Shown one piece after another: positions 46,116-47,377 of a stretch of 64,000 bases of DNA. The stretch is from contig CANKVU010000013.1 of the NCBI GenBank assembly GCA_947487205.1, positions 62,001-126,000 of the forward strand, in the 5' to 3' direction. A program made the translations under genes and the position numbers. The number at the start of each line of letters is the position of its first letter. Positions within the stretch are counted from its first letter, which is position 1. The DNA is from an uncultured Paracoccaceae bacterium. GTDB taxonomy: Bacteria > Pseudomonadota > Alphaproteobacteria > Rhodobacterales > Rhodobacteraceae. Below the pieces are notes generated by a model, which ran no database searches, was not told the DNA's origin, and saw only the letters and a list, made by a program, of their open reading frames with translations.

Positions 46116-46559
46116 TTACCGTGGCTCGTCGCTCGCGAGAGCATAAACTGTTTGAATAAGATCGTACATAACAAAAACAACTTCAAAAATTATTAATAAG
46201 CAAATGCTGTGTATGAATGATACTGCGACCACATTCTCGAAAAACTGAGCCCTAAGAAACGACACCATGAAGCCAATAAATAGAGACGCGGTAAGTATAA
46301 ATGCACTAAGATTAAGTGAGCTTCTTGCGTCTGAGAAAACCACCTTCTTAAATCTCCGCTCGACTCGCGAATATTCCAAATTTATTTGTGTGATACTTAC
46401 AAGGCTTACCGTAACGATAACGACCAGCACACTAATGAAATTGTAGTTAACGAAATCAACAAGGAACTTATTCCGCCCGAGTAGATCAGGCTGTAAGATT
46501 GACAGTGCGGTGAAAAGTCCAGCCGCAACTATAAGTGAGATCAGGGGTACTCGCCTCAT
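46116..46559 (-). CDS. Small four-helix membrane protein (RexB-like architecture)
   Basis: A 147-residue protein in an AT-rich patch unlike its surroundings. Predicted membrane helices are at about 5-22, 41-58, 84-103 and 110-134. A basic, arginine-rich cytoplasmic-type loop lies between helices 2 and 3 (LEYSRVERRFKKVVFSDARS). Its ATG overlaps the stop of the upstream 273-residue gene (ATGA). Size, topology and the SFIH segment in helix 4 resemble lambda RexB (144 aa, four spans, ion channel). No confident homology can be claimed by eye; function unknown. Confidence 0.7.
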   Translation of the reverse strand: MRRVPLISLIVAAGLFTALSILQPDLLGRNKFLVDFVNYNFISVLVVIVTVSLVSITQINLEYSRVERRFKKVVFSDARSSLNLSAFILTASLFIGFMVSFLRAQFFENVVAVSFIHSICLLIIFEVVFVMYDLIQTVYALASDEPR

Positions 46560-47376
46560 TTCCGAAGAACGTCGAGCAAAGCATTTAGAATTTCAGGTAG
46601 AGACCTACTGGTTGGGCGTAGGTCATCCGATACAGGAACAGAGCGAACCCTTTTCTTGGAATTAAATACTTCTTCACCGTTGCTGTGGGCGACAATATCA
46701 CCGCCTCCGCGTTCAGTATAATCGGCAAGACCCTGAAAGTATTCGCTTTCAGTTTTCAGGCCGCGATCACTTTCATATTCGGACTTAAGTTTATTGGTGC
46801 CAGTTTCCTCATGGAGCTCTTTCAATGCCCGCCTAGTTTTCTCTTCTGCGTTGGGCGGATTAGGCGGAACTACTTCAAACTTAAGTTTAGTTATTGGGTT
46901 GGGATAACTTTTGATTACTTCGCTGAATTTCCCCTCATCTACCAGGGGATATACCGATAGTTTGAAATACTGCGAGGAATTTGGAGCATTTACTACCTCA
47001 ACTAAGCCACGGAGTATTGCGGGCGGGGATCCAACGCCTTGGACATCTTCGATACCCACTACCTGCTCATCATCATTTAGATTCAGAAAGAAACCCGACT
47101 TTTTCCACCGACCCGACTCAGAAACGGCAAACGGATCTGTTGGGTCGCTCTCCGCATCTTCTGAAGTCCAACGACATATTGCGGCAGCAATGACCCCTTC
47201 TTCTTCCTTGATAAATTCGTAGCGGAGACGTATTCCCTTACGATGATCAAAAGTAAACGATCTAGAGAACTTACGGCGCAGAAATTCCTCCCTGGAAACA
47301 TCTGGCTCTATGAAACCCTCGAAGATAGTGCCGTCATATTGAAATGTGAGAGAAAACCGATAAAGAAAAAGTTTCA

Positions 47377-47377
<1 letters not shown>
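46556..47377 (-). CDS. Uncharacterised soluble protein coupled to lepA (RexA-like architecture)
   Basis: 273 residues ([20 protein letters not shown]), no signal or membrane span. Its ATG overlaps the lepA stop by one base (TGATG), so it is translated from the lepA transcript. It is AT-rich, with codon use unlike neighbours, indicating transfer. A central beta-rich half ends with KLKFEVVPPNPPN, then a helical C-terminal half with LKTESEYFQGLADYTERGGG. The segment order is reminiscent of uncharacterised DUF4747/RexA-like proteins that accompany small membrane partners. Partner gene overlaps by 4 bp. Function unproven. Confidence 0.7.

Follow-up and report, generated by a model that had tools for sequence, protein, structure and literature searches.

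A probable abortive-infection gene pair behind lepA in a Paracoccaceae bacterium: a rare DUF4747-like variant at a family-wide site of variable cargo

An uncultured Paracoccaceae bacterium carries, directly downstream of the gene for translation elongation factor 4, a short AT-rich patch that holds only two genes. What do these genes encode, and why are they found at the end of lepA? The first-pass annotation had likened them to the rexA and rexB genes of phage lambda. RexAB is among the longest-known phage-exclusion systems. We analysed the whole stretch of 64,000 nucleotides in which the patch lies, hereafter the window, and compared it with genomes of related bacteria and with phage and defence-system collections. 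The features of the locus are as follows.

47377..49437, minus strand: lepA (translation elongation factor 4), a reading frame that we take to be lepA from protein-family knowledge; possible extra codons at the upstream end; its C-terminus is found in 297 of the 325 genomes of the family
46006..47377, no strand: AT-rich inserted segment, from the GC profile and because gene A was not found in 13 congeners
46556..47377, minus strand: gene A, soluble protein of 273 aa, ATG start, divergent DUF4747-like, putative RexA-like sensor
46116..46559, minus strand: gene B, 147 aa, ATG start, four-span membrane protein whose central loop is basic, putatively a RexB-like effector
46006..46115, no strand: tail of the insert with low GC, separating gene B from the adjoining remnant, from the GC profile
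45796..46005, plus strand: short frame bordering the insert; its 3' part is a repeat of that of the frame ending at 45260; possibly BrnA antitoxin-like

The patch had been described as sharply AT-rich in GC-rich surroundings and directly 3' of lepA, and GC profiles confirm this: the GC content per 100 bases is 0.36-0.53 in the interval 46000-47400 and 0.60-0.72 on either side. The two-gene content and both overlaps were also found on the minus strand as described. The last base of the lepA stop is also the first of the gene A start (TGATG), which leaves no gap, and the gene A stop overlaps the gene B start (ATGA). A 131-nt repeat, with copies at 45129-45259 and 45874-46004 that are 83% identical and 745 bases apart, is present beside the patch. 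It makes up the 3' portion of a small, putatively antitoxin-like frame, and its second copy adjoins the insert.

Gene A was compared with protein families and with other genomes. It resembles the Pfam family DUF4747 (PF15931) over residues 157-223 with 16.9 bits and E 0.0044, below the gathering score of 27 bits. Among the PHROGs families it matches phrog_10040 (E 8.2e-5); for a clear DUF4747 protein, the match to phrog_10040 is at 5.6e-71. In hhalign, a profile built from gene A together with its relatives aligned with that of 13 DUF4747 proteins over residues 34-271 of 273 at 86.2%, with an E of 4.9e-6 that refers to one single comparison; gene A alone gave 29% against seven DUF4747 proteins. 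An HMM built from the 13 proteins scored gene A at 17.0 bits and its relative at the locus L038, introduced below, at 10.8, the best of 1000 shuffles being 4.7. The best 12 rows of this test contained none of the 69 other proteins from the region behind lepA, none of the gene A pieces from the locus L039 and not lambda RexA. The DUF4747 resemblance suggested from the sequence alone is thus borne out, by weak Pfam and PHROGs matches and then by a profile comparison over most of the protein. Since the Pfam score is below threshold and the profile and HMM comparisons support the relation, we term gene A DUF4747-like and not a member of the Pfam family; its L038 relative is without a Pfam match. 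Solved structures contributed little. A sequence search of them gave nothing meaningful, two structure models of gene A were too poor for use (pLDDT 48 and 48.5), and the PDB search for a RexA/RdgC-like fold with these models was uninformative, with a best E of 0.16 and RexA absent from the best 50 of 671 hits.

Gene B has four hydrophobic stretches in a hydropathy scan, at residues 4-22, 41-59, 84-102 and 110-128. The loop between the second and third is basic, with 6 K/R in 24 residues; by the same measure, lambda RexB has 5 K/R in 17 residues. Four spans with a basic loop between helices 2 and 3 had been proposed for this protein, and the scan agrees. The same picture was obtained for the two relatives of gene B described below and for lambda RexB. 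The central loop motif LEYxRxERRF is well conserved, in 3 of 3 relatives. No significant family match was found for gene B in searches that included Pfam, PHROGs and PADLOC, and gene A had no match in PADLOC either. Gene B also does not match the membrane partners of the 13 DUF4747 proteins (hhalign 1.3%). The pair is therefore a rare variant, its membrane protein lying outside the usual DUF4747 partner family, and this suggests that DUF4747-like sensors combine with different membrane effectors.

Close relatives of the pair are few. Gene A has one full match, within its own genome; elsewhere, in a set of 59 relatives that includes 13 of the same genus, no match was better than E 0.048, which is within chance. 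A single-sequence search of phages, plasmids, IMG/VR and GTDB contigs gave no gene A relatives, and none of gene B was found in IMG/VR. The GTDB contigs searched with the gene B alignment yielded two relatives. Of the whole pair we found only two relatives, both with the two genes in the same order. The first, L038, is from an uncultured Rhodobacteraceae bacterium and encodes A and B proteins of 275 and 164 aa, 36% and 50% identical to those of the window, with a 4-base overlap of the genes. The second, L039, is from Paracoccus haematequi. There the pair lies about 20 bases behind lepA, gene A is split into two pieces (182 and 89 aa), and the B protein (155 aa) is 45% identical to gene B. The A-B arrangement is more than chance, since homologues of both genes are found in the same order in L038, there with the same 4-base overlap, and in L039.

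The surroundings of the L038 pair, the closest relative that is intact, include a gene resembling a DnaD-like helicase loader (phrog_1701, E 4e-7), an endonuclease-like gene (phrog_452, E 9e-9) and, by reading of its sequence, a putative tyrosine-integrase-like gene. With these neighbours, within L038:3775-8495, the pair is perhaps part of a small mobile element. Genes A and B of the window, foreign in composition, were most likely acquired horizontally.

The pairing was also studied at the level of DUF4747-like genes in general. Matches were found in genomes of the same order (390 genomes, 12 matches at E 0.01, own included), class (289 genomes, one match) and phylum (398 genomes, six matches besides the own one). 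From these 19 matches we removed L037, judged to be another protein, and L034, cut by a contig end. In each of the 17 testable loci that remained, the window being one, the gene directly behind the DUF4747-like gene encodes a small membrane protein. These partner genes are on the same strand; their products have 147-250 aa, in which a simple hydropathy scan counts 2 to 7 hydrophobic stretches. One of the 17 loci, L035, is the same place as L039, with the broken gene A. A further DUF4747-like subtype was observed at L036:934-2598 (331 aa) and L034:313-1320 (335 aa); the partner protein in L036 has about seven hydrophobic stretches.

Five of the 17 pairs are located behind lepA (the window, L030, L031, L032 and L035/L039), at distances from 0 to about 610 bases. 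Only in the window does the gene A start overlap the lepA stop directly, the other four being separated from it by about 20 to 610 bases. Because of these five pairs, we surveyed the site downstream of lepA. The lepA C-terminus was located in 297 of the 325 family genomes, and 120 downstream regions (L070-L189) were collected: 119 taken in listing order, with those nearest to the lepA of the window first, and the one from G800, the genome that holds L033. Eight loci near contig ends were left out. The hotspot loci comprise these regions and positions 46006-47377 of the window, and 114 regions, window included, reach at least 6.5 kb. A patch was scored where 600 consecutive bases, beginning no more than 1.1 kb from the lepA stop, had a GC content at least 0.10 below that of the region beyond 4.6 kb.

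Such a patch was found in 66 of the 114 regions, compared with 4 in a control scan starting from 2.7 kb. Stricter GC drops separated the two further, with 57 against 0 at 0.12 and 48 against 0 at 0.15. Within the genus of the window, 12 of 14 species have a patch whose GC content is lower by 0.10 or more than that of their own lepA, and in BLAST at E 1e-4 no AT-rich frame of one of these congeners was related to one of another. A length of about 1-1.5 kb is typical of the AT-rich stretch. Family-wide it contains 71 AT-rich frames at 60 loci, which fall into 53 clusters; 52 frames run with lepA and 19 against it.

The content of the cargo, a set of 69 proteins with the two of the window left out, is diverse. 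Among the Pfam matches listed, SIR2_2 occurs in at least four proteins and 8xMP and Panacea in at least two each, together with TIR, FRG, RelA/SpoT, AbiEii-type AAA and the AbiJ N-domain, and also HNH, AlbA_2 and DUF4062. The PADLOC matches listed include PDC-S25 in at least three proteins, PDC-S15, S31, S33, S34, S60 and M32A, as well as ThsA, Dsr1, LmuA/LmuB and TIR models. In PADLOC, 151 models were matched by 35 cargo proteins and 19 models by the other 34, compared with nine models by 35 flanking proteins from these loci (CARF regulator and SduA being strong among the nine), figures that count overlapping models and not proteins and therefore describe an enrichment in kind and not a rate. 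The lepA 3' end is a family-wide site of variable, mostly mutually unrelated and often defence-type cargo, in inserts of one or two genes. The survey of the pair relative to defence islands that had been suggested for this locus thus places five DUF4747-like pairs at the lepA site among many defence-type genes, a setting that favours a defence role. Searches for new defence genes in this large family could accordingly follow a simple rule, which is to examine the first 1-2 kb downstream of lepA. Judging from literature listings, we found no description of a lepA defence hotspot in the open literature.

Two sequence elements were observed at the lepA end itself. In many genomes (e.g. L143 and L174) a dyad is centred on the lepA stop, and behind this dyad comes a hairpin of the form GTGGGCG-AAA/GCA-GCG...CGCGTGCCCAC, mostly 16-36 bases behind the stop. 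Searched with a strict pattern of this hairpin, 121 regions yielded 14 copies, none of them farther than 150 bases from the lepA stop. Its stem covaries: 34 cells changed on both sides compared with 11.2 in shuffles, none of 500 shuffles reached as high a value, and slid versions had far fewer paired changes. A hairpin model was built from 21 of 26 candidates (five dropped). It found 29 copies, spread over 26 of the 120 regions; for 21 of the 26 this follows from the construction of the model. Every copy is close behind lepA and in the lepA direction, for example L188:6940-6978, L122:141-176 and L158:6939-6977, with none elsewhere in the 817,745 bases of the regions. Nine hairpin loci had no Rfam match at gathering score, and the window contains no hairpin at E up to 1. 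A genome-wide search of 61 genomes gave 12 matches at E <0.01. Four of them are at lepA (in G765, G1055, G189 and G1057) and eight away from it, five of these in G1055; the match away from lepA in G1071 is probably due to chance. In G1055 the hairpins lie behind other genes and form clusters with a spacing of about 100 bases, in one case together with a repeated 3' end of a gene, and G026 and G1057 have single copies away from lepA, the G026 copy behind a gene with a similar end. These sites are L212:3600-4150, L212:11050-11450, L213:6000-6350, L215:4600-4800 and L214:5050-5300.

A second partial lepA end precedes the cargo at four loci. In L145 a decayed copy of about 45 codons of the lepA C-terminus is found about 300-456 bases behind the lepA stop and before the inserted gene. 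Such copies suggest that the donor DNA carried a lepA end. We rejected the second lepA end as a boundary that marks the cargo in general, since only four loci have one. We speculate that the lepA stop region could be an exchange site for small defence cassettes, with dyad and hairpin as the recognition sequence or scar of an undescribed recombination system, a doubtful reading on present evidence. The dyad (arms of at least 8) is about equally frequent at loci with cargo (10/60) and without it (9/61), which argues against it as an insertion mark. If the reading were true, one- or two-gene immune modules would be swapped at the site, the RexAB-like pair of the window being one example, and the hairpins behind other genes would be further sites of the same recombination system.

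What the pair of the window does is suggested by its composition, its relatives and its location. We consider it likely that genes A and B form a horizontally acquired abortive-infection module, a rare variant of the RexAB/CarolAnn type that currently occupies the lepA hotspot. The cytoplasmic gene A product would sense a phage product or a phage DNA complex and would then act on gene B, most likely through the conserved basic loop of the latter. Gene B could then open, so that the membrane depolarises and the infection aborts. Coupling to lepA probably keeps expression of the pair low and constant in this strain. Read-through from lepA, as proposed earlier, is plausible in the window; with 19 of the 71 AT-rich frames opposing lepA, it is not a rule of the site.

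The roles of the two proteins could also be reversed, as in phage Butters or in a toxin-antitoxin system: the soluble protein would inhibit phage or cell growth, and the membrane protein would restrain it until infection. In the account of Butters (PMC7542560) the soluble protein indeed looks like the effector, gp30 alone blocking some phages and gp31 attenuating gp30, and the overlap of genes A and B would fix the A:B ratio. However, both genes are reported to be needed in CarolAnn and Sbash, with the membrane protein as the proposed channel (PMC6426606, PMC6426596), and gene B is better conserved than gene A between the window and L038 (50% against 36%), which suits an effector. We therefore regard reversed roles as rather unlikely. 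An accessory function other than defence, for example in membrane stress response or mobile-element maintenance, with the hotspot location incidental, would fit a gene B without a functional family match, and the L038 pair, amid integrase-like, DnaD-like and endonuclease-like genes, could serve that element. This explanation is improbable in view of the many defence-type families in the hotspot cargo and of published accounts that tie DUF4747-type pairs to phage exclusion and to CapKS-regulated immune operons, 17 CapKS operons being reported with 'DUF4747/CarolAnn' genes (PMC13373217). A decaying, silent insert whose genes are unexpressed and being lost, as the broken gene A of P. haematequi and the failure to find gene A in 13 congeners might suggest, is highly improbable given two intact frames with tight overlaps and conserved protein sequence.

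The abortive-infection reading may be set beside the known systems. With lambda RexA and RexB (279 and 144 aa) the pair shares gene order, sizes, four spans at similar positions and the basic loop between spans 2 and 3; unlike it, the lambda genes are located beside cI and not behind a host gene. The likeness claimed by the first-pass annotation holds in these respects and does not extend to a sequence relation, for which six hhalign comparisons gave less than 1%. The profile comparison that it proposed thus supports DUF4747 (hhalign 86%) and neither RexA nor RexB. Sequence homology to the lambda proteins was rejected both when single sequences were compared and when an alignment of four RexA members was used (hhalign <1%), and genes A and B do not match the RexA and RexB families phrog_12654 and phrog_14878. 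A DUF4747 motif has been claimed for lambda RexA too, in literature that includes the report on the RexA structure (PMC11077077); our comparisons did not reproduce it.

The proteobacterial DUF4747 pairs (L018-L024, L027-L032) are similar in gene order, in close spacing and in the profile match to gene A, and L030, L031 and L032 likewise lie behind lepA. They differ in sequence, gene A being 11-15% identical to seven of them, and in their partners of 164-250 aa, which have no detectable relation to gene B. Sbash (PMC6426596) and CarolAnn (PMC6426606) are described as excluding phages by a soluble protein with a DUF4747 motif and a four-span partner, and ion-channel opening is proposed there for RexAB-like membrane partners. 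Compared by description, CarolAnn gp44/gp43 and Sbash gp30/gp31, two RexAB-like systems of actinobacteriophages in which the DUF4747 motif is weak, likewise have a DUF4747-resembling soluble gene beside a four-span membrane-protein gene, with larger products (370/372 and 178/165 aa, against 273 and 147 aa here). The Pseudomonas putida pair PP_5643/PP_5644, a RexAB-type pair reported to exclude phages (PMC12894663), is, again by description, a defence pair of a soluble and a four-span membrane protein; unlike the pair of the window, it is prophage-borne and has an HHpred link to lambda RexA in that report. As for the site, defence hotspots at core genes are described, judging from literature listings, in Escherichia coli and P. 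aeruginosa (PMC10121019, PMC10250203), with a conserved flank and variable defence cargo as here. The hotspot reported here differs from those described in being the end of lepA, with an AT-rich stretch of about 1-1.5 kb, and in its hosts, which are relatives of Paracoccus.
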